This document shows, piece after piece, positions 2,181 to 60,026 of a stretch of DNA of 64,000 bases (its first letter is position 1; every line of letters begins with the position of its first letter). The stretch spans positions 58,745 to 122,744 of IMG/VR virus record IMGVR_UViG_3300037492_000170; one strand, written 5' to 3'. This DNA comes from a virus. The notes under the pieces were generated by a model that worked only from the letters and a program-made list of their open reading frames with translations, had not been told where the DNA came from and searched no databases. Position numbers and translations under genes: made by a program.

Positions 2181-2268
2181 CTCCTTATTGTGTTATCCTT
2201 AGAAGTTATTTAATGGGAAGGCGGCTAAGGTTTCCGCTTTATCGGGTGTACACCCCTATCCCATTAAA
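2181..2268 (-). promoter_or_regulatory. Structured leader RNA of HNH copy 1 (three-way junction with pseudoknot)
   Basis: Read on the minus strand, P1 pairs 2259-2268 with 2209-2218 (10 bp). Inside P1 lie a GGGTGT/ACACCC hairpin (2244-2255) and hairpin P3, GCGG/CCGC with the 9-nt loop AAACCUUAG (2221-2237). The loop can pair over 6 bp with CUAAGG (2197-2202) downstream of P1. The SD of the HNH gene (AAGGAG, 2181-2186) lies just beyond and contains UAAGG, which can also pair with the loop. A copy with compensating base changes precedes HNH copy 2. I do not recognise a named RNA family. A cis-acting control of endonuclease translation is inferred. Confidence 0.7.
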
Positions 2269-7477: not shown

Positions 7478-7561
7478 CTCCTTATGGTGTTTATCCTTAG
7501 TGATTATCATGGGCAGGCCGCTAAGGTTTCGGCTCTTCGGGTCTAGATTCCCTAGCCCATG
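7478..7561 (-). promoter_or_regulatory. Structured leader RNA of HNH copy 2 (same fold as at copy 1)
   Basis: On the minus strand P1 pairs 7555-7561 with 7508-7514 (CATGGGC with GCCCATG). P2 is a GGG/CCC hairpin (7539-7552). P3 is GCCG/CGGC (7530-7533 with 7517-7520) closing the identical 9-nt loop AAACCUUAG. The CUAAGGAU partner is at 7493-7500 and the SD at 7478-7483. Relative to copy 1, P1 changes GGGA/TCCC to GGGC/GCCC and P3 changes GCGG/CCGC to GCCG/CGGC, so pairing is kept while the sequence changes. The stop codon of the upstream glycosyltransferase (7521-7523) is inside the conserved loop. Confidence 0.7.
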
Positions 7562-9197
7562 CTAAAACTTGTTCAATAGCTTCTATAACTTCCTCCACAG
7601 AATGATTCATACAATCATGGTCTGGCAAAGGACACTGTTCTCTATCTTGTTGATATGGTTGATTATTAAAGCATTTATATTCTATAGGGCACGGCTTCCA
7701 CAAGTTAACTCTATCGGGACCCTCATGACCATACTGCTCTGGTCTAGTCCTCCCAAACATGGTTACTGTTGGTACATCAAAAGCTGCTGCCACATGACTC
7801 CCCATAGTGTCCAAACTAACTACAAGGCTTGAAGAAGAAATCCATCGAAAAGCTTCTCTAAATTTAAGGTTTGATATCGACACAACCTTATCAAAAGAAT
7901 CGTGCTGCTCCTCACCTGTCAGGTGGATAACATCATAACCCTTTTCAGTTAGATAATCAATAATAGCCTGCCATCTGTCATTGGACCAATACTTAGTTCT
8001 GCTGATGTCTGAGAAATCAAAGAGTTTAGCATTACTTTGCGGGCATATAACAACATAAGGTCCACTATTCTCCATAGGCTCTATTCCAAATATCTGTGGG
8101 CGCGTACTTGGAGCCACGGGAACATCTATCATCCTGCAATACGCCTCAGATATGTGTCCCTCCCACTTATTCTCTGCCATCCAACTATATATACTCTTCT
8201 CTACTCGATATGTTCTCTGTGCATCAAACTGACCCTTGGCTATCTCATCAATATCTGGATTTCCTTTGAATACGTGCTCACCGTAAGGATGATAGACTGA
8301 TATATTTCGTTCTGGATACATCTCTCGTAGTTGCCTGAAAGCAGGTTCAGACATAACCAAATCCCCGATAGCGTGACTCAAAGAAATGTGAATACCTGGT
8401 TTCAAGTTCTTCTTCAAAATATTGAACCTACGTAAATCATCGAGAGATTTACTCCCGTCTTTTACTGCTCTCGCTCCACCAGTACCTGCCCGGAAATGAT
8501 ATGCTATCGCCCCTGGATGCACTAATACTTTCATACCTTCGAGATGAACGCGCCAGGACAAGTGTGTATCCTCTCTATGAAAATTCAAGAGAACCGTCTC
8601 AAACCCATTAATCCGGTCGAGTGCTGCCTCTGTTAACATCATAGCAGAGTTTATATGCTCCACCGGAAAAGGCTTCTTCCTAGTGTGAAGGGACCACTGA
8701 ACATTAACACTGTCACTAAGATGCTCAATAGTTCCGTGTTTATATCTATCATCGTCGAGTTTAAAGGTATCCGGTTTCGTCCCGGCGAATAGCATGAGTC
8801 CAGATGCAGCACCTACAAGTGGGTCATCGAACAAAGGAACTACCTTTTCCAAGTAGTCTGGAGATAACCACGAGTCATCCTCTGCTCGATATACCAAGGG
8901 ATTCCCCCAGTCACGCGCACCTAACCACCCGGCTTGGTATACCGCCCCTACATGATAAGTGCTTGGTCCTGGTAGAATTCTTATTCTATGCCCCTGCATC
9001 TGTAATTCACCAATAATTTTAGAATAAAGTGAATGCTTGGTCCACTTCTCCTGCGTAAATGCAACATCATCAGAGTCGTCTACGATACATAAATCAAAGT
9101 TTTTAAATGTTTGCATCCTCAAACTGAACAATAGCTGATGCACAATATCCATGCGGTTGTGCGTCGCAACTATCACTGTCACCCGTTTATTGGACAT
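7521..9197 (-). CDS. Two-domain glycosyltransferase (GT2-like plus GT9/heptosyltransferase-like)
   Basis: This 558-residue protein fuses two glycosyltransferase folds. Residues 1-260 are GT2-like: VIVATHNRMD at the start, CIVDDSDD near residue 40, an EDD metal-binding triad near 106 and the late NFHREDTHLSWRVHLEG motif. From about residue 270 it becomes GT9/GT-B-like: IHISLSHAIGDLVMSEPAFR and, later, VVSLDTMGSHVAAAFDVP with FGRTRPEQYG, as in ADP-heptose transferases. It is Cys-rich near the end (CPIEYKCFNNQPYQQDREQC). The last 15 residues are encoded by the RNA element of HNH copy 2. A strong promoter lies upstream. Acceptor unknown; virion fibres or host envelope are candidates. Confidence 0.85.
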   Translation of the reverse strand: MSNKRVTVIVATHNRMDIVHQLLFSLRMQTFKNFDLCIVDDSDDVAFTQEKWTKHSLYSKIIGELQMQGHRIRILPGPSTYHVGAVYQAGWLGARDWGNPLVYRAEDDSWLSPDYLEKVVPLFDDPLVGAASGLMLFAGTKPDTFKLDDDRYKHGTIEHLSDSVNVQWSLHTRKKPFPVEHINSAMMLTEAALDRINGFETVLLNFHREDTHLSWRVHLEGMKVLVHPGAIAYHFRAGTGGARAVKDGSKSLDDLRRFNILKKNLKPGIHISLSHAIGDLVMSEPAFRQLREMYPERNISVYHPYGEHVFKGNPDIDEIAKGQFDAQRTYRVEKSIYSWMAENKWEGHISEAYCRMIDVPVAPSTRPQIFGIEPMENSGPYVVICPQSNAKLFDFSDISRTKYWSNDRWQAIIDYLTEKGYDVIHLTGEEQHDSFDKVVSISNLKFREAFRWISSSSLVVSLDTMGSHVAAAFDVPTVTMFGRTRPEQYGHEGPDRVNLWKPCPIEYKCFNNQPYQQDREQCPLPDHDCMNHSVEEVIEAIEQVLAWARESRPEEPKP

Positions 9198-32903: not shown

Positions 32904-33386
32904 CTAAGATATAATTCGCATAGTCCTTGATTCATATGCGATTTCTAACTCTTCAATAACATTAGCAGCTTCACCCAAAGAATGCCTATCCCCTAATGTA
33001 AAGCTAACAGGAAAACCACGTTTATACTCCCACACTCTGGAGGGGTCGCCGCGCGGATCTAACTCATATAAAGTAAAATTCTTTGTATAGACAGATGGGA
33101 CGTTACCATTACCAGTAACCGGGTCTTGACACAGATTCATCCAATCTTCGAAATAAACCCTTCCAGGTCCATCCAAAGGAGCCACTATACCAAGAGTACA
33201 GTTACCATAAGTGAGCATCCCTACTTCTTTAGCCGGGTGGTTTTGCCCAGCCCCTGCGTGCTGGGTAACACTATTTGTACGAACCCCAGGATTAAAGTGC
33301 TGCACTAAAGCAGCCGGAAGTCCATTAATCTCTAATCTAAACTTAAATTGCTTCAACACACTAATTGCTGCAGCTTCTACGGGCAT
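32904..33386 (-). CDS. Tail tube protein, gp19-like
   Basis: This 160-residue protein has the T4 gp19-type pattern: FKFRLEINGLPAALVQHFNP at the start, YFEDWMNLC in the middle, NFTLYELDPRGDPSRVWEYK and a closing strand (VIEELEIAYESRTMRI). The length fits the family. It polymerises into the inner tail tube inside the sheath. It has a good SD (AGGAGG) and lies between sheath and chaperone genes, separated from the sheath by the HNH copy 3 insertion. A second, shorter tube-like protein is encoded at 61873-62253. Confidence 0.9.
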   Translation of the reverse strand: MPVEAAAISVLKQFKFRLEINGLPAALVQHFNPGVRTNSVTQHAGAGQNHPAKEVGMLTYGNCTLGIVAPLDGPGRVYFEDWMNLCQDPVTGNGNVPSVYTKNFTLYELDPRGDPSRVWEYKRGFPVSFTLGDRHSLGEAANVIEELEIAYESRTMRIIS

Positions 33387-33438
33387 TTTCTAGTTCCTCC
33401 TATCAATTTTTGTGCACACAAAAATGAACATGGCGAAC

Positions 33439-33466
33439 ATGTTAGATGCTCGCCAGATTCTGTCAA
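33439..33466 (-). promoter_or_regulatory. Possible promoter between HNH copy 3 and tail tube gene
   Basis: On the minus strand a perfect TTGACA (33466-33461) is followed after 16 nt by TAACAT (33444-33439), a weak -10. It would restart transcription of tube and downstream tail genes after the HNH insertion. An inverted repeat TTTTTGTG/CACAAAAA lies about 25 bp downstream in the leader. Support is limited to the -35 match. Confidence 0.35.
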
Positions 33467-33491: not shown

Positions 33492-34529
33492 TTAACTAAT
33501 CCTATTCTTCAACTCCTCTACCCGTAGACAACCGCAAGATTTGGAAGAGCCCCTCTTCAGGTTGTTTAAAAGAACCTCGGTAACCTTACCACAATCGCAC
33601 TTACATAACGCATATGTGAGATACTGTTTTCCGTTAGATTTTCTGCATGTATTTACTACGGTTAATCTACCAAACCTAATTCCTGAAAGGTCTTTCAACT
33701 TAGAACCTTGAGGGATATTATACTTAGTACCTGGTTTAGTTCCGGGCGTGTGCGCGTTAGGGTCCAATATCTTCTCGGGTGGGTCCCCCCGTTCATACCT
33801 GTTCTTTAATAACTGATACGAAACTCCAAGCTTCTCTGCCCACTCTCCTATAGTCCGTGACTCGCCGCCATATGTAAGAATGGTATTTTTAATATCCCTA
33901 GTCTTGTTGTCAAGTGTGTTCTTAGATAGAACCTTATCTACAGAAAACTTCGACCTTGACCTTATTCGTTTATGAATAGTAGTGGCTGGAATATCAAGTT
34001 GCTTTGCCCAATCCTCTACAACACGAGTCTCTCCTTTATATGTCAACTTACGATTCGTACGTTTGTTCCTTGCCTGTTCTCTTAGGCTTTCGTACCTACA
34101 GTTCTCTGGAGAATACCCCAAATCATTATCTTTCCTACCTAATGTCTTTCCATCTGGGCATATTCCCATATCTTCAAAGAAGTTAGCGAAGCCGTCTTCC
34201 CCATCCCACCTATCACAAAAGGTTATCCCTCTCCCTCCATAATTTTTATACTCTTTTCTGTTAGGATTTCTGCATCTAGCACGCGCCCCTTCCCATATCG
34301 TATATTCCTTCTGGTATATACTGTCTTTTGCCGCCCCGCCGTGTTTCACATTAGCGCTGCACCCACAAGAGGTGGATTTACCAGTTCGTACTGAATAAGA
34401 ATCGACGAGTCTCTCTGTTCCACACTCACATACACACTTGTAAAAATAACGTGTAGATGTCCCCATAACCTTCTTAATGACACCAGTCACTTTCCATTTC
34501 CCAAATTTTGTTCCGGCTTTATTTTCCAT
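33492..34529 (-). CDS. Free-standing HNH-type homing endonuclease (copy 3, extended)
   Basis: This 345-residue member of the HNH family begins with a Cys ribbon (CVCECG ... SCGC), followed by YGGRGITFCDRWDGEDGF and the HNH-like segment LGRKDNDLGYSPENCRYESL. Unlike copies 1 and 2 it then carries two helix-turn-helix-like repeats (VVEDWAKQLDIPATTIHKRI; TIGEWAEKLGVSYQLLKNRY) and ends with a second copy of the N-terminal ribbon (FGRLTVVNTCRKS, CKCDCGKV, SCGCLRVEEL). It interrupts the sheath-tube gene pair without breaking either gene. The SD is buried in a hairpin and a consensus promoter overlaps that hairpin. Confidence 0.85.
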   Translation of the reverse strand: MENKAGTKFGKWKVTGVIKKVMGTSTRYFYKCVCECGTERLVDSYSVRTGKSTSCGCSANVKHGGAAKDSIYQKEYTIWEGARARCRNPNRKEYKNYGGRGITFCDRWDGEDGFANFFEDMGICPDGKTLGRKDNDLGYSPENCRYESLREQARNKRTNRKLTYKGETRVVEDWAKQLDIPATTIHKRIRSRSKFSVDKVLSKNTLDNKTRDIKNTILTYGGESRTIGEWAEKLGVSYQLLKNRYERGDPPEKILDPNAHTPGTKPGTKYNIPQGSKLKDLSGIRFGRLTVVNTCRKSNGKQYLTYALCKCDCGKVTEVLLNNLKRGSSKSCGCLRVEELKNRIS

Positions 34530-34534
34530 AAAAA

Positions 34535-34562
34535 AACCTCCTTACATTTTCATAAGGAGGTT
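34535..34562 (-). promoter_or_regulatory. SD-sequestering hairpin of HNH copy 3
   Basis: The stem AACCTCCTTA / TAAGGAGGTT is 10 bp, perfect, with an 8-nt loop. It contains the full Shine-Dalgarno sequence TAAGGAGGT, ending 5 nt before the ATG. In long transcripts from the sheath gene the SD would be paired and translation low. Transcripts that start at the overlapping promoter would lack the 5-prime arm. Confidence 0.75.
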
Positions 34563-34588
34563 ATACCATAAAAAAGATGAAATGTCAA
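34560..34588 (-). promoter_or_regulatory. Consensus promoter overlapping the HNH copy 3 hairpin
   Basis: TTGACA (34588-34583), 17 nt, TATAAC (34565-34560), with TGG in the extended -10 position. A start point 6-8 nt further is near 34552-34554, that is after the 5-prime arm of the SD hairpin. Five of six -10 bases and all six -35 bases match sigma-70 consensus. Confidence 0.75.
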
Positions 34589-34689: not shown

Positions 34690-37326
34690 TTATCTTCGAA
34701 TCCAACCCGGCAGTTCCTTTAACTCTGTGTAGGTCTCGAAAGCCTCACCCGTTCTAAGTACACCTAACTCAAACTCTAGGTAGTAGATAGTTCTGGTAGG
34801 CTGTATAAGTGCCCTACAATGGTAAATTCCTCTATCAATATCAAGTCCTGAGTTGATAACGGCATTCTTAAGTACTCCACCATCAAACCAGGCATCACGG
34901 TCGGTCTGCAACGCGTAGTCATAGATATCATACTTATTCTTCCAATCATCAAAAGCAGGTTCAAGAGTTCTATGAATCTCTCTCCAGGTTACAGGATGGT
35001 TAGGCTCAAACAAGAAGGTTCTCAGTATCGGCATAAGCATCCTGTTCATAACCGTAATAAACCTAACAACATTAAGTTCTCTCAATGCGGAAGGTGCTCT
35101 CTGTGTAGTTCTCTGCTCCCAGAACATCGCGCCCTCGATACCTACGTATCTAGATATCATCAGGTAATTGATGCCGTTCTCTGCAAACAAATCAGAGTAA
35201 CCTGTAGTCCTGTTAGTTTGGATATCAAAATCCAAATCCTCAACAAGTGTTACCACACCTCGTCTGGGTCCAACAGGAGCGTGACTTGAACCGTAATCAT
35301 TATCAGTCCTACATAAACAAGATGCTAGATGCCCAAGGTTGGAAACCCACTTCCTAGTATCATCCAAATCATCATAAACCAACGGGCGACCGTACCACAA
35401 AGAGAACCTATGACTATTGAAAGCCGGATGGCTCCAAGGGGCTCCACCTAGTCTCCAGGTCACTGCTTCTTCAGGACGCAATCCGTAAGGCACCATCCCA
35501 TACCCTAACATATCGGCTCTATCCTCACAGTATACAATCATCGCTTGATAGACCGTAGCAGAGGTAGTACCTGGAACCATAAGATCCATACTCATATGAG
35601 CAGTATCTGCAGCATAAATTCCGGTTTGTGAAGGAGAATCACCTATCCAATCGGAATCATCAAAATCATCAAGCCCGTTAAACCCACCTGTGAGAGCAAC
35701 ACCCAGTGTCTCATCAGAAAGTTCTGGTCGATTAAGCCACCCAACTTCTGTATAAAAATCATTTGAAGAACTTTCATCAGTCACTATTACAAGTGTAGAC
35801 CTTTCATTAATGTAGTTAACAAAATATCTCTGAGATGTTGGGTCCATGCTAAGTGTTGGGAACCACTCTTGCATGGCACTTTGTCGAAGATAAGAAACCT
35901 TTACATCAAAACTACCTCTTGAATCAAGCGCAGAATCGTATATAAACACTCTAAGGTCATCGCCCCAATCTCCTGGGTCTTTTGATGTGAATGTTGCAGT
36001 GTCTTCCTGTACCCCTTCATACCCGAGAACTTCTGTAGTTATAAACCCTAATTTTATAGCTGAGGATGACTCAGATTTAATTTGTACAGAAGAGTCATCA
36101 CCAGAAGCTACAGTTCTAAAAGCTAGTTTACCATCTACGGACAGCACAGTAGCCCCTTCTAATCCTGCCTCGTTTATTTGAGTAACTAACTGAGCAGAGG
36201 TCAATCTAAAAGAAGAGCCCGGTGATGTAGAGGGGCTTCTTTCATAAACACCTTCTACAAATCCTAATACAGTATAACAATGAAGAGCTACTGTCATTAT
36301 CTCTATATCATCTGCTACATTTGTAGCAAATACTCTAATCTTATCTGTACTTGTAGCCACGGCACTAACGTCATCAATAGCTGCAATTTCTTCCGCTATT
36401 TGTGTAGCAGTTCTTTGAATACCAGCAGTTAATGTTATAGTAGTGGGACTCCCCCACTCTCCATTATGCCTGACCCTAATTTTAAACTTATCATTCTCAG
36501 TATCCGTCGCTTTAATAACAAACGGACCAGCAACAGTACCAGTTGTCCTACCAGATATAGTTGAATCATAAGCAAAGGAAAAATACTGATCTGCTCCACC
36601 ATCTATGGATACAATTAGTTCATCTTCCCCAACGATATGCATATACTGTCCCATAGTGACACCAATAGTGCTATAAACATCATCAGCAACATCCGATATC
36701 TCTAAATCATCGTCAGGGTTATCAGTAAATATCTTTACATGCCCGTGTATAGCTTCCGCATTTATACCTGTTGCTGCTGCTATTTCAAGAGCAATCTGTG
36801 AAGCAGACCTCGTTGTACCTTCAGTTAATGTTATAGGTAAAGCACTTCCCCATGTTCCTTCATGTCTGAGTTTAGCCGAAAACTTTTTGTTGTCTGCTGT
36901 TATCTCAAACGGTCCTTCAACAGTACCAGTTACATGCCCACCAAAACTCTGAATAAATGTGTAAGGACCAGTTCTTCCTTCAACATAAGCATGAGTTATA
37001 GCGTTACCTCTATCCGGGATAGTAACAGTAGCTGTAGTTGCAGTTAATGTGGAGGCATCAGAAGTTACGTCATAATGCGCCGTACGTATAAGATTCAAAC
37101 GCGCACCTTGTCGAAGTGCCATTTCACAAACCAACGGATCATTTGTATATGGAACTTTCAGCCCATATGTTCTACGATAGTCATCAAGTGATGTTACAGT
37201 CATTGGAGCACCAACAGGTCCGCGTTCTGCTTGAATAACCATAGTAACATAACCCATAGCTACGGCATCGACAAACATTGAAAGGTCGTTTATAGTCCAA
37301 ATTACTCTAGCAGTGCCTAGTGTCAT
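34690..37326 (-). CDS. Tail sheath protein with three inserted repeat domains
   Basis: This 878-residue contractile sheath subunit has an N-terminal part (YVTMVIQAERGPVGAPMTVT; DDYRRTYGLKVPYTNDPLV) and a C-terminal part (TQRAPSALRELNVVRFITVM; ending LKELPGWIRR) typical of sheath proteins. Between them, residues 133-228, 262-360 and 372-432 are three copies of one domain: TGTVEGPFEIT..., SASQIALEIAAATGI..., then LEI..., A..., IGV-type ends. A further copy occurs in the 1756-residue baseplate protein. The insertions make the sheath much longer than usual (about 400-700 residues) and would sit on the outer surface. Confidence 0.9.
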   Translation of the reverse strand: MTLGTARVIWTINDLSMFVDAVAMGYVTMVIQAERGPVGAPMTVTSLDDYRRTYGLKVPYTNDPLVCEMALRQGARLNLIRTAHYDVTSDASTLTATTATVTIPDRGNAITHAYVEGRTGPYTFIQSFGGHVTGTVEGPFEITADNKKFSAKLRHEGTWGSALPITLTEGTTRSASQIALEIAAATGINAEAIHGHVKIFTDNPDDDLEISDVADDVYSTIGVTMGQYMHIVGEDELIVSIDGGADQYFSFAYDSTISGRTTGTVAGPFVIKATDTENDKFKIRVRHNGEWGSPTTITLTAGIQRTATQIAEEIAAIDDVSAVATSTDKIRVFATNVADDIEIMTVALHCYTVLGFVEGVYERSPSTSPGSSFRLTSAQLVTQINEAGLEGATVLSVDGKLAFRTVASGDDSSVQIKSESSSAIKLGFITTEVLGYEGVQEDTATFTSKDPGDWGDDLRVFIYDSALDSRGSFDVKVSYLRQSAMQEWFPTLSMDPTSQRYFVNYINERSTLVIVTDESSSNDFYTEVGWLNRPELSDETLGVALTGGFNGLDDFDDSDWIGDSPSQTGIYAADTAHMSMDLMVPGTTSATVYQAMIVYCEDRADMLGYGMVPYGLRPEEAVTWRLGGAPWSHPAFNSHRFSLWYGRPLVYDDLDDTRKWVSNLGHLASCLCRTDNDYGSSHAPVGPRRGVVTLVEDLDFDIQTNRTTGYSDLFAENGINYLMISRYVGIEGAMFWEQRTTQRAPSALRELNVVRFITVMNRMLMPILRTFLFEPNHPVTWREIHRTLEPAFDDWKNKYDIYDYALQTDRDAWFDGGVLKNAVINSGLDIDRGIYHCRALIQPTRTIYYLEFELGVLRTGEAFETYTELKELPGWIRR

Positions 37327-42320: not shown

Positions 42321-42927
42321 TTACAACCCCACAACTGCAAGTAAATCTATGACTATGGTCTAACTCTATCTCAGTGGCAGTGGACAGTAATACTTCATGC
42401 ACATGACGCATAGCTTCTGAGGACCAGGTAGGTATAACCTTGCCGTCCTCATCAAATACTATATGAATCACGTGTGAATGTTTATCTATACTTTCGGATA
42501 GGTTCAGTTCTGTTTCTACGTCTAATTCTGTTGTTCTTGTTAAATCAACATAGGTTTTAGTTTCATCTGAAAAACCAGCTATCGAGTAGCCATTGTATTC
42601 GCCTCTTAATACTTTATCCCAAATAGCGTCGCCTACGATTTGTGTTCCGAGAACCCAAGACCCTGTATAAAATTCGTCCGGGTCGTTCTCCCTCGCTATA
42701 AATGATTCAATCACGTAACAGCCGGATTCTTTCCAAGAATGTTGCTCATCAATCCGATTCACATACCCTTTTTTCATAAAATCATAGGCGACGCGTTTAA
42801 TCTCATTAGCGGTCATAGTAGTCCCATGCGAATCAATAAAACCAGGACGATATACTTCACCGAAAACAATGCGCTCATAAGTGTCTCTAACAACTAGGCG
42901 CTTGTTTTTGTCGGGGCTACTACTCAT
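42313..42927 (-). CDS. Prohead protease, XkdF/S78-like
   Basis: This 204-residue protein has FGEVYRPGFIDSHGTTMTAN, then KKGYVNRIDEQHSWKESGCY and VLRGEYNGYSIAGFSDE, matching XkdF-like (Peptidase_S78_2) phage proteases. Candidate catalytic residues are His63 and Ser115. It processes scaffold and capsid. It is the first gene of the leftward late operon. Odd points are the absence of a recognisable SD before the ATG and a TATTAT hexamer directly abutting it. Normally a portal gene would precede it, but the region upstream is non-coding. Confidence 0.8.
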   Translation of the reverse strand: MSSSPDKNKRLVVRDTYERIVFGEVYRPGFIDSHGTTMTANEIKRVAYDFMKKGYVNRIDEQHSWKESGCYVIESFIARENDPDEFYTGSWVLGTQIVGDAIWDKVLRGEYNGYSIAGFSDETKTYVDLTRTTELDVETELNLSESIDKHSHVIHIVFDEDGKVIPTWSSEAMRHVHEVLLSTATEIELDHSHRFTCSCGVVNE

Positions 42928-42992
42928 ATAATAGCACTACTAAAAAACACGTAATATTGTCAAGGGTAAATGCATTACTCCCTGCGTAAAAC

Positions 42993-43024
42993 TTGACAAA
43001 TCAGTATGCATGGTTAATTATAAT
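42993..43024 (+). promoter_or_regulatory. Promoter-like sequence with 20-bp spacer
   Basis: TTGACA at 42993-42998 and TATAAT at 43019-43024 are both perfect but separated by 20 bp. A CATGGT motif seen in the other phage promoters lies before an overlapping TTAATT. Activity may need a factor that corrects the spacing, or the true -10 may be shifted. Confidence 0.45.
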
Positions 43025-43086
43025 GCACACATCGAGAAGGTGCCCCCAAAATGCAAAGATTTACTGCAAAAGAAACTTGTCAAGAT

Positions 43087-43108
43087 GGTGCCCCAAAACG
43101 GGGGCACC
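43087..43108 (+). repeat. GGTGCCCC/GGGGCACC hairpin with upstream direct repeat
   Basis: An 8-bp perfect stem with a 6-nt loop. The left arm GGTGCCCC plus following AAAA also occurs at 43039-43051 as GGTGCCCCCAAAA, 48 bp upstream. It is a possible protein-binding site or RNA hairpin in the leader from the first promoter. Confidence 0.5.
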
Positions 43109-43132
43109 CCCTCCTACAATTTAGGGCAAAAC

Positions 43133-43148
43133 ATGAAAGCGCTTTCAT
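43133..43148. promoter_or_regulatory. 16-bp perfect palindrome, cre-like operator
   Basis: ATGAAAGCGCTTTCAT is a perfect dyad. Its core TGAAAGCGCTTTCA fits every position of the catabolite-responsive element consensus bound by CcpA (TGWAANCGNTNWCA) in Firmicutes. It could equally be the operator of another LacI-family regulator or a phage repressor. Confidence 0.5.
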
Positions 43149-43168
43149 AATTTTAATCAGAAAATGAG

Positions 43169-43207
43169 GCGACATGGCGTGTCGCCCCCTGCGACATGGC
43201 GTGTCGC
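43169..43207. repeat. Two tandem 17-bp inverted-repeat sites
   Basis: GCGACATGGCGTGTCGC occurs at 43169-43185 and again at 43191-43207, identical. Each copy is itself a dyad (GCGACA/TGTCGC around TGGCG). Start-to-start distance is 22 bp, about two helical turns, so two dimers could bind on the same DNA face. Candidate operator or replication iterons. Confidence 0.6.
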
Positions 43208-43235
43208 ACCCCTCGCCCATAAGTCTTTGATTTTC

Positions 43236-43264
43236 TTAAAAAATTGGATTTCTGCTAATATAAT
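43236..43264 (+). promoter_or_regulatory. Promoter-like sequence just upstream of strong terminator
   Basis: TTAAAA, 17 bp, TATAAT. The -10 is perfect and the -35 matches four of six bases. Transcripts from here would meet the terminator after about 80 nt. Confidence 0.4.
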
Positions 43265-43298
43265 GAACGTTCTAGTTAACAAACTAATAAAGTAAGAT

Positions 43299-43356
43299 AA
43301 GGAAACGTACTTAATAAATATAAGATATTTATTAAGTACGTTTCCTTTTTTTTTTT
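43299..43356 (+). terminator. Very strong intrinsic terminator
   Basis: A perfect 22-bp stem (43299-43320 with 43326-43347) with a TAAGA loop is followed by an uninterrupted T-run up to 43356. It is directional for plus-strand transcription. No plus-strand gene lies upstream, so it must end a leader or small RNA, or insulate the replication promoter. Confidence 0.9.
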
Positions 43357-43512
43357 ATAAGATAAGACGCAGGACTGCGTTTCCCCCTTCAGAAAAACCC
43401 CAGGAGCTTCGCGTATGCAGGAAAGTATAGGAGAGGGAGAGGGAGAGAAAGGTAAAGAGAGGAGCGTGGGTGGGTCGCTGCCCCCCATCGCGCGGTATTA
43501 AAGTATTCATGC

Positions 43513-43541
43513 TTGCAATTATTTTGAAATCGTGATATACT
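43513..43541 (+). promoter_or_regulatory. Promoter of the replication operon
   Basis: TTGCAA (43513-43518), 17 bp, TATACT (43536-43541) with an extended -10 TGA-type element. It lies about 40 bp before the first gene of the plus-strand operon and behind the strong terminator, so it is the likely main early promoter. Confidence 0.7.
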
Positions 43542-43579
43542 ATTTGACATTGGAATTTTAGTTTTTTGGGGAGGCGGGC

Positions 43580-44665
43580 ATGGAGAAAAGGTTATTCAAG
43601 GAGAATGAATACAATACACTCACTGCTTTATTTAGTATGGCATTAGCGGCGGCACCTAAGTTTACGTTAAATGTCACTAGTATAGCTCTATTCATGTCAA
43701 GTAGGGCATCTCGTTGGGGGGGCATTGCAGCTACTACATCAACTGCTGATATTAGAAACTTTTTAATAAACACTCCGCATACAAATGCTCACAGAACTGT
43801 CCAGAGGTCTATGGTTTCAATCAAAGAATCTAATCTATTTATATTTACTTCAGCCACCAACTATGTTATCAATTTTCCTGGAATACTGTCGCATTATTTT
43901 TCATATACTGCACTTAAAGGAAGCGCACTTAATTTTTTTAATGGTTTGTGGAGTAAGGTAGTCACGGCATATCATGACCAGGGCATTGCTTGCGACATTC
44001 CTATATTTGGTGGGGTTAGTAATATGAAACTCGATGAACTTGTTGAAGATGCAAGGGCTAAAAGTATAGCGAGTAAGAAGCCGACGAAAGGCAACGCGCT
44101 TACTGTAACCGGCTTTATAACTGCTATGAAAGCACTTTCATCAAAACACAACCGGAGTTTTAACGCTATCGAGGAGCCAAGAACTTTCAAGAAGGTTAAG
44201 AACTATCTTGCCGAATGTATAAAGGAGGAAAGGGACCCAATTGATACTATAGATAATACTATCCCTTATTGGAATGGCATAGTAACTTTTTTAATAGATA
44301 TCACTGGTTATACTAGTATACAAGGTATCACTTTTGATTTTGAAACATTTTATAATTTTAGAGGATATGTGTATGATTACTTGTCGGTTCGTGAAGGAGG
44401 TGAGGGGATACGAGCATCTGAAAGAATTGTAGGAGGTATTTTTCTTAAAAGACTATTAGATGCAGGAAAGAGACCTGTTGCTGGTAAAGATCACCGCATA
44501 GAGATTAAAGGTTTGGGCGCTATGCTTACTAGCATAGAAGCGGGTGGACCTGTTGTTGTTGGACCTAATGTAGATTTGCCAGCTACTGAGACCCCTAGTA
44601 AGTGGTTGAAGAGTGGTAAAACATTAAAAACATTGAAAGAAGAAAGAGCAAAGGAGAAAAGGTAA
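43580..44665 (+). CDS. Hypothetical first gene of replication operon
   Basis: This 361-residue protein is not recognised. It starts at ATG after a GGGGAGG SD. The N-terminal half is helical and rich in Ser/Thr/Ala (FMSSRASRWGGIAATTSTAD), and the region LSSKHNRSFNAIEEPRTFKK with the following helix is basic. The C-terminus is Lys-rich (LKTLKEERAKEKR). The first 90 residues (ALFMSSRASRWGG ... DIRNFL) could hold a winged-helix-like DNA-binding unit. Being first behind the early promoter and upstream of helicase and primase, an initiator or helicase-loading role is possible but unproven. Confidence 0.55.
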   Translation: MEKRLFKENEYNTLTALFSMALAAAPKFTLNVTSIALFMSSRASRWGGIAATTSTADIRNFLINTPHTNAHRTVQRSMVSIKESNLFIFTSATNYVINFPGILSHYFSYTALKGSALNFFNGLWSKVVTAYHDQGIACDIPIFGGVSNMKLDELVEDARAKSIASKKPTKGNALTVTGFITAMKALSSKHNRSFNAIEEPRTFKKVKNYLAECIKEERDPIDTIDNTIPYWNGIVTFLIDITGYTSIQGITFDFETFYNFRGYVYDYLSVREGGEGIRASERIVGGIFLKRLLDAGKRPVAGKDHRIEIKGLGAMLTSIEAGGPVVVGPNVDLPATETPSKWLKSGKTLKTLKEERAKEKR

Positions 44666-58039: not shown

Positions 58040-60026
58040 GTACATAGAAATAGGAGAAGCACTGGAGGCAGTGCAGCAAATAAGTAAAGATATAGGACTT
58101 ACCAAGCAATCGACCGGGTTCTTCGAAGACCTTGTTCTGTCATGTCACATGACAGAGAAAGATGGGCAATTACTGTTAGATAAACATCTGTTCAGTTTAT
58201 ACTGCGAAAACTATATGAAGACCATGTTATCTAAAGACATGGACCAAATGACAGCCACACGAGGATATAAGAAGCAGCCGGTAGATATCGAAGAGTTCTT
58301 AGAGTCTAAAGAATATATGAACCAAAGAGGTCATCTTAGACCAGTGATAAAATATGAACTGGATAGACTCTTTTCTAACAGAGATAAATATCTTGAGGTA
58401 ATTCTTTCGGGTGGAATAGGGATTGGGAAAAGCTTCTTCTCTGAAATGGCATTATCCTATTTGGTGTATCTAAACTCTTGCCTAACAAATATGCAAGCAG
58501 AATATGATTTAGCCCCAGGTTCTACCATCTACTTCATTCTACAGTCTGTATCTATGACATCGGCTAAACGAGTCCTCTTCGACCAGATGATGGGGCGCAT
58601 GTCACAAACACATTACTTTACAAGGGTGTTCCCCTTCGATAAAAAAGTTCGCTCTATGTTGAAATTCCCGAACGGATTGTATGTAACCCCGGTTAGTAGT
58701 ACTGAAATGTCAGCTATTGGGTTGAATGTGTTTGCAGGTGTGATTTCGGAAGCTAACTTCTTCCAAGTAATAGCAGATAGTAAGTTAAGTAAATCTGCTG
58801 ATGGAACATATGACCAAGCGGAACAGAATTATGGCACTATTATGCAGAGAATGCGTTCCAGGTTTGATAAAATGGGTAAAATGCCTGGAATGATGATATT
58901 AGACTCTTCCGCACGGTACCCAGGCGACTTCCTAGATAGAAAGATGGAAGAAGCGAAGACAGACCCTAGTATATTCGTCATGAAGTATGCACAATGGGAA
59001 GCATTACCTGCGGATAGGATGAGCACAGAGAAATTCCTTGTTGAAATCGGGAATCATGAACGAAGTTCTAGAATTCTACCGAAATATGAGATGGCATTCG
59101 AAGGGTCCGAAGTTATTGAAGTGCCGATGAACTACTTCCGTGACTTTCAACGAAATTGTGAAGCTGCACTCCGAGACTTTGCTGGTATTGTGCTCGGTGT
59201 TGAAGGCGCCTTCATGAAGAACAAGGAAGCAGTAGTTGATGCTGTTCGCGCGCACGCGGCTGTGTATGATAATAAGCAACTATTCACAATGGATGACATT
59301 ATCATAGATGCTGAGCTAGATTGGGGTTCTCCACACTGGGCGATGCTTATAAACCAGGACTATTTAAAGGAACCATCGTTCGACGCTGGCGCTACATTTG
59401 CGCTGCACGCTGATATTGGTATCACACACGATAGTACTGGTCTTGTAGTGGGGCATATCCAAGATTATGTGAATCTGCCATCAACCAGTAGATACAACGG
59501 CAAACTAGACACATTTGTAGAGTTAACCGATTTACTCGCACCAGTATTTTGTATAGATGGGATTATCCGTATTCGCCCACCACATGGCGGCGAAGTTCAC
59601 ATGGATCTGCTAAGAGGATTCATTTTCTACATCTGTCAGGTTCTTAATATAAAGTTTGGTACGTTTGATAGATTCTCTTCGGTGCAGTTTATACAAGGGT
59701 TGAGGCGATTAAAAGTAAGGAGTGGGTTAGTATCGACAGTAACAACGACACAACCATACAACGAACTTAAATCTGCCTATATTGAACACCGAATCATACA
59801 TCCCAGTCACAAAGTATATGTAGAGGAGCTACTTGGGTTGCAGTTCGAGCCTAAGAAGAACAGGATTGACCATTTACCCGGTGCTGGAAAAGACTGCGCT
59901 GATGCTATGGCTTCTGTTGTACACATACTTACAAACAAAGTGGCGAACTACAGCAGAAAGCACGAGGAAATCAAACAAGTAAAGCGGTACCAAAAGTTAG
60001 GGATTCGGAAATTGAGGTTCAGATAA
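58032..60026 (+). CDS. terL: Terminase large subunit
   Basis: This 664-residue protein has the ATPase with Walker A GGIGIGKS (127-134) and Walker B AGVISEANFF (Glu240). The nuclease part has HADIGITHDSTG (first Asp, about residue 459), IKFGTFDRFSS (second Asp region) and KDCADAMASVVHI (third Asp). The length fits family members of large myoviruses. It cuts and pumps DNA into the prohead. It is unusual in this genome that TerL is on the plus strand, 15 kb away from and opposite to the capsid genes, and no portal gene follows it. Confidence 0.9.
   Translation: MHKYIEIGEALEAVQQISKDIGLTKQSTGFFEDLVLSCHMTEKDGQLLLDKHLFSLYCENYMKTMLSKDMDQMTATRGYKKQPVDIEEFLESKEYMNQRGHLRPVIKYELDRLFSNRDKYLEVILSGGIGIGKSFFSEMALSYLVYLNSCLTNMQAEYDLAPGSTIYFILQSVSMTSAKRVLFDQMMGRMSQTHYFTRVFPFDKKVRSMLKFPNGLYVTPVSSTEMSAIGLNVFAGVISEANFFQVIADSKLSKSADGTYDQAEQNYGTIMQRMRSRFDKMGKMPGMMILDSSARYPGDFLDRKMEEAKTDPSIFVMKYAQWEALPADRMSTEKFLVEIGNHERSSRILPKYEMAFEGSEVIEVPMNYFRDFQRNCEAALRDFAGIVLGVEGAFMKNKEAVVDAVRAHAAVYDNKQLFTMDDIIIDAELDWGSPHWAMLINQDYLKEPSFDAGATFALHADIGITHDSTGLVVGHIQDYVNLPSTSRYNGKLDTFVELTDLLAPVFCIDGIIRIRPPHGGEVHMDLLRGFIFYICQVLNIKFGTFDRFSSVQFIQGLRRLKVRSGLVSTVTTTQPYNELKSAYIEHRIIHPSHKVYVEELLGLQFEPKKNRIDHLPGAGKDCADAMASVVHILTNKVANYSRKHEEIKQVKRYQKLGIRKLRFR

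Follow-up and report, generated by a model that had tools for sequence, protein, structure and literature searches.

The leader of a free-standing phage HNH endonuclease gene, located between the tail sheath and tail tube genes, carries a hairpin that buries the complete Shine-Dalgarno (SD) sequence and, across the 5' arm of this hairpin, a predicted host-type promoter. We consider it fairly probable that both elements together form a transcript-selective translation switch, by which the endonuclease would be translated from an early or low-constant message of its own. A broader reading, to which we lean only slightly, is that of a recurrent module formed or kept repeatedly in unrelated phages, in which HNH genes behind capsid or sheath genes would be masked on late messages and translated from their own early message, with the timing known from T4 reversed. 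As judged from the sequences, the feature is real, its first reading was correct in outline and its meaning is wider than originally proposed.

The window analyzed here is a stretch of 64,000 nucleotides comprising positions 58745–122744 of the 122,744-base IMG/VR virus record IMGVR_UViG_3300037492_000170. The sheath gene, the endonuclease gene (HNH copy 3) and the tube gene are all encoded on the minus strand, with HNH copy 3 in the middle. The features of the locus are as follows (window coordinates).

34690–37326, minus strand: tail sheath gene (phrog_23), the source of read-through; its end and the HNH start are 160 nt apart
34583–34588, minus strand: -35 hexamer TTGACA (TTAACA in a 98% identical contig)
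34560–34570, minus strand: extended -10, TATGG plus TATAAC (hexamer 34565–34560), whose last 3 nt are the first 3 of the left arm
34553–34562, minus strand: left (5') arm AACCTCCTTA, with the predicted transcription start at A34553
34552–34545, minus strand: loop TGAAAATG, in which two inner G-U pairs are possible
34535–34544, minus strand: right (3') arm TAAGGAGGTT, which includes the SD TAAGGAGGT (34544–34536) in full
34530–34536, minus strand: T7 tract that separates the stem from the ATG and, on the read-through transcript, turns the hairpin into a terminator match
33492–34529, minus strand: HNH copy 3, 345 aa, phrog_374 (E=2.8e-68), motif LGRKDN
33431–33466, minus strand: candidate promoter TTGACA-16-TAACAT plus hairpin between the HNH stop and the tube gene (consensus match only)
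32904–33386, minus strand: tail tube gene (T4 gp19-like), downstream of HNH copy 3

Following TATAAC, the minus-strand leader reads CTCCTTATGAAAATGTAAGGAGGTTTTTTTATG. The original prediction of a perfect 10-bp hairpin burying the whole SD was confirmed: the stem AACCTCCTTA/TAAGGAGGTT (34562–34535, minus strand) is perfect over 10 bp, holds the SD entirely in its 3' arm, occurs once in the window and was found in 0 of 100 shuffles. The ATG at 34529 lies 7 nt past GGAGG. On the read-through RNA, the SD is predicted to be sequestered by this stable hairpin, and the predicted unpaired fraction of the ribosome site (-15 to +3) rises from 0.17 on the read-through leader to 0.53 on the leader starting at A34553. 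The promoter postulated on the 5' arm is present as TTGACA-17-TATAAC, with TATGG before the -10 corresponding to a TRTGn extended -10 and with the 3-nt overlap of -10 and arm. However, the term "near-consensus" was generous, since the -10 hexamer has a C in place of the most conserved T (-7), for which the TATGG extension may compensate. A start 6–8 nt after the -10, leaving out the left arm, had likewise been proposed; the -10 spacing predicts it 7 nt downstream at A34553, with which the left arm ends, and by this geometry the internal promoter would give an RNA without the 5' arm. Such a transcript would begin with AUG AAA AUG UAA, a leaderless three-codon frame with its stop at the SD (34553–34542, minus strand), which is possibly a chance occurrence. 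The central idea of a masked read-through and an unmasked own transcript agrees with the anatomy and the folding as well as with the recurrence behind capsid genes and the compensatory stem changes presented below, but it had been put forward with the U-tract overlooked. The base at -7, the -35 variant of the near-twin contig, a glycine in the HNH motif and the int-alpA leaders of two HNH copies had been overlooked as well.

The whole record holds nine sites that match the promoter at 11 or all 12 positions and have an extended -10, whereas 12 shuffles averaged 0.4 such sites. The promoter class of TTGACA-17-TATAAC with extended -10 is thus represented in this record beyond chance. Several of the nine sites immediately precede a gene, another HNH copy among them (TTGACG-17-TATAAT, TGTGA). 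At the head of the late minus-strand operon (42700–43700), no minus-strand sigma-70 match of the extended -10 class was found. The plus strand of the divergent region between the late and the early genes features a perfect 20-bp stem followed by a long T run (window 43300–43346).

In the reading we favor, messages reading through from the sheath gene, which is late and strongly expressed, would carry both arms and have their SD sequestered, a part of them probably also stopping at the T7 tract, and endonuclease synthesis would be kept low while late mRNA is abundant. From the host-type extended -10 promoter across the left arm, transcription would start at the arm's end and yield a short message without the left arm and with an open SD 7 nt from the AUG; the endonuclease would be made from this message early or at a low constant level. 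In other phages, the same module, built from different sequences, would guard HNH genes directly behind major capsid genes.

To survey HNH leaders, relatives were gathered from IMG/VR and GTDB genomes, and a single script scored hairpins that cover the SD and hold, in their left arm or loop, the start predicted from the best promoter. With the sets pooled and the SD required in the arm, 7/282 HNH genes but only 1/2158 neighboring ORFs reached a score of at least 8 (p=2e-6; survey p-values are indicative only, because thresholds were picked after copy 3 had been seen and later scans were seeded with positives). At a score of at least 9.5, six HNH genes and no neighboring ORF remained in the pooled survey. 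The first set, scored after copy 3 was known, contributed 5/196 HNH genes versus 0/1474 neighboring ORFs at this higher threshold. In the first hold-out, a score of at least 8 was reached by 4/37 HNH genes versus 0/351 ORFs, and SD stems of -10 kcal/mol or better were found in 8/37 versus 8/351. The second hold-out gave 1/49 versus 3/333 at a score of at least 8; these three ORFs are prophage genes with operator-like palindromes that have no SD in the arm. The difference persisted when genes with less than 50 nt of upstream space were removed from the first two sets (7/119 versus 1/638). SD accessibility alone was rejected as a discriminator: the first survey was too noisy owing to misassigned start codons, and mean accessibility barely separates HNH genes from controls. 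Half of the six best "controls" (L362, L453, L345) turned out to be HNH genes missed by the classifier. In two of these (L362 2973, L453 3000; GARG variant), an SD hairpin lies over the -10 behind genes not recognized as capsid genes.

The genes upstream of the scored cases fall exclusively into clusters of major capsid genes, apart from the sheath gene of copy 3. These are phrog_283 (L254, L285, L304 and, below threshold, L296 and L297), phrog_9953 (L078, L084) and phrog_617 (L312, L318, L322, L386, L428). Two further cases missed by the scan were picked by annotating upstream genes irrespective of the leader, and with these counted the module is found behind major capsid genes of five families. 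L222 (behind a phrog_267 capsid gene) has TTGCAT-17-TATAAT and a 10-bp helix with a 23-nt loop over the SD; in L361 (phrog_29), TTGACT-17-TAATAT abuts CTCCT-TTTACT-AGGAG, a 5-bp stem. The upstream annotation covered a part of the ORFs with a length of 230 aa or more, and some HNH genes next to capsid or sheath genes were possibly missed. As later scans were seeded with positive genes, the number of independent origins is estimated at about six. For each of the nine top HNH cases, the end of the -10 was located no further than 2 nt ahead of the left arm and no deeper than 5 nt into it. Poor fits were L294 (hairpin beside the SD), L299, L230 (inverted hairpin) and L403, whose HNH gene lies behind a phrog_1328 capsid gene with an int-alpA RNA in place of the module. 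The HNH gene of L366, likewise next to a sheath gene, begins at the stop of the latter and was rejected as a carrier of the module. Ten isolate capsid sites without such an HNH gene showed several separate intergenic hairpins and no SD-hairpin plus promoter, and a search with joined query proteins for isolates with adjacent capsid and HNH genes in two capsid families found none. In a search of literature available without subscription, the module behind capsid or sheath genes was not found described, which is weak evidence of novelty.

The hairpin of copy 3 also has the makings of an intrinsic terminator: a G+C-containing stem followed by a U-tract, listed as such by the terminator scan. Like the terminators after phage capsid genes, it is located directly behind a heavily expressed structural gene. 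It could therefore primarily terminate the sheath transcript, with the HNH gene starting at the U-tract and using the purine-rich arm as SD, so that masking would be a by-product. This view gains from an exact-hairpin pattern search in IMG/VR, which returned mostly plain terminators with no gene after them, from capsid genes without HNH insertion, which often have a terminator-like hairpin behind them, and from the terminators also present in T4 mobE and segF (PMC2988022). We nevertheless regard it as unlikely. A U-tract follows the stem in HNH copy 3 and L304 only and is not kept across relatives: it is missing in L254, L285, L078, L084, L296, L312, L318, L322, L386 and L428, which still have the SD in or beside the 3' arm and the promoter over the 5' arm, an arrangement that distinguishes the module from intrinsic terminators. 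Moreover, the tube protein encoded downstream still has to be made. In addition, the stems covary. Those of L254, L296 and L297 have compensatory double changes at 4 of 11 positions, with 33/33 cells paired; in L312, L318 and L322, 2 of 11 positions are compensatory, one of them with three pair types, and again 33/33 cells are paired. With pairing preserved by covariation and a U-tract absent from most stems, the feature common to the cases is, by the sequence evidence, SD masking and not termination. In HNH copy 3 and L304, termination may act together with masking. Transcription of the tube gene past HNH copy 3 may restart from the candidate promoter at 33431–33466 (minus strand), whose -10 TAACAT sits in the loop of a 9–10 bp hairpin.

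It is rather improbable that the inverted repeat serves as a DNA operator over the promoter, bound by a repressor (perhaps the endonuclease itself), with the RNA hairpin being incidental. Palindromes over the -10 or the start are typical of operators, the three control prophage genes look alike in this respect, and I-TevI represses its own late promoter via an operator. However, an operator would not account for an SD consistently in or bordering the 3' arm, for the G-U pairs in some stems, or for stem sequences that vary widely among relatives with the pairing kept.

The history of the endonuclease gene was approached through its sole close relative in IMG/VR, a 124-kb contig that is 98% identical in this region. 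Here, the hairpin is unchanged, and one SNP at 34586 produces the weaker -35 TTAACA. The HNH ORF differs from its counterpart by 1 SNP in 1038 bp and, including flanks, by 2 differences in 1303, whereas the neighboring tail tube gene (32904–33386) has diverged by 7.5%. This contrast is a sign of a recombination boundary, and the near-identity of ORF and flanks beside the divergent tube gene suggests a recent spread of the HNH cassette. The two near-identical phages do not have the same HNH copies, and one clean empty site was found: the HNH gene of the near-twin at L036 1519–2117 faces an empty site here (genome 119127–119154) with about 28 nt common at the junction and is, by this comparison, a clean insertion. 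For the sheath and tube genes, no relatives without HNH insertion were found in IMG/VR, and neither an empty sheath-HNH site nor the arrival of the hairpin with the HNH gene was seen. Among 166 members with readable motif, the first HNH-motif residue is D in 120, E in 34, N in 10 and G in 2. HNH copy 3 and its twin read LGRKDN, the Gly being a departure from the L(D/E)R.(D/N)N of relatives. Because this Gly replaces a conserved Asp, Glu or Asn, cutting activity is uncertain, and the nuclease may be inactive or altered. That the promoter is inactive and the hairpin keeps a perhaps decaying gene near-silent, any product coming from the occasional read-through mRNA that opens or is processed, would fit the C at -7, the TTAACA of the twin and the Gly, but is very unlikely in light of the TATGG extension, the 17-nt spacer, the genome-wide class of the same promoter and a divergence pattern that fits recent spread and not decay.

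Another structured leader was found in the same gene family. Six phrog_374 HNH genes of this phage and its near-twin have the Rfam int-alpA RNA (RF02996) immediately ahead of their SD, as does the capsid-adjacent HNH gene of L403, a different contig. The RNA was located at window positions 2197–2266 and 7494–7562 (minus strand), upstream of HNH in L040, L043, L044 and L045, and at 2369–2437 of L403. HNH copies 1 and 2, considered as further carriers of the module, were rejected on account of this leader. Like the module, int-alpA places a structured RNA just ahead of the SD in phrog_374 HNH genes of the late region; unlike the module, it is a 70-nt fold in which no internal promoter was seen. 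It may represent an alternative leader for late-region HNH genes. At a contig end, L024 (8599–8639) carries CCTCCTTA-loop-TAAGGAGGTTTTTTATGAAAAGA, a hairpin of the SD-in-terminator type directly before an ATG.

Hairpin-sequestered ribosome binding sites combined with an internal promoter have been described for I-TevI, I-TevII, I-TevIII and segB of T4 and for mobE of Aeromonas phage Aeh1 (PMC2988022, PMC3014915). HNH copy 3 resembles these genes in that it encodes a putative endonuclease, is predicted to have its SD in a hairpin on RNA initiated upstream and would have its own transcript without the 5' arm; it differs in belonging to the phrog_374 HNH enzyme family, in residing in unrelated phages and in having no intron. 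The likeness to T4 I-TevI drawn in the original prediction was therefore right for the mechanism, the same device being found in PMC2988022. A similar leader is known from the T4 lysozyme gene e, where early read-through is masked and an internal promoter drops the 5' arm (PMC3014915); there, the promoter is late and serves a lysis gene, not a mobile one. The main difference concerns timing. The endonuclease-specific promoters of T4 are middle or late, never early (PMC2988022), and these genes are on late and masked early. The internal promoter predicted for copy 3 belongs to a host-type class, and late read-through would be masked. With a host-type promoter instead of a T4 middle or late promoter, expression timing is probably inverted relative to T4, which fits the earlier suggestion that a housekeeping-type promoter shifts expression.

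If this holds true, the T4 device would not be a peculiarity of T4 but a general answer to the general problem of how a selfish gene can persist next to one whose mRNA swamps the cell. Carriers of the switch would then be predicted among HNH genes located just behind capsid or sheath genes, and the finding would speak against late expression being a requirement for phage endonucleases. Placing a promoter inside a hairpin would, in addition, offer a simple design for insulating a gene against upstream read-through.
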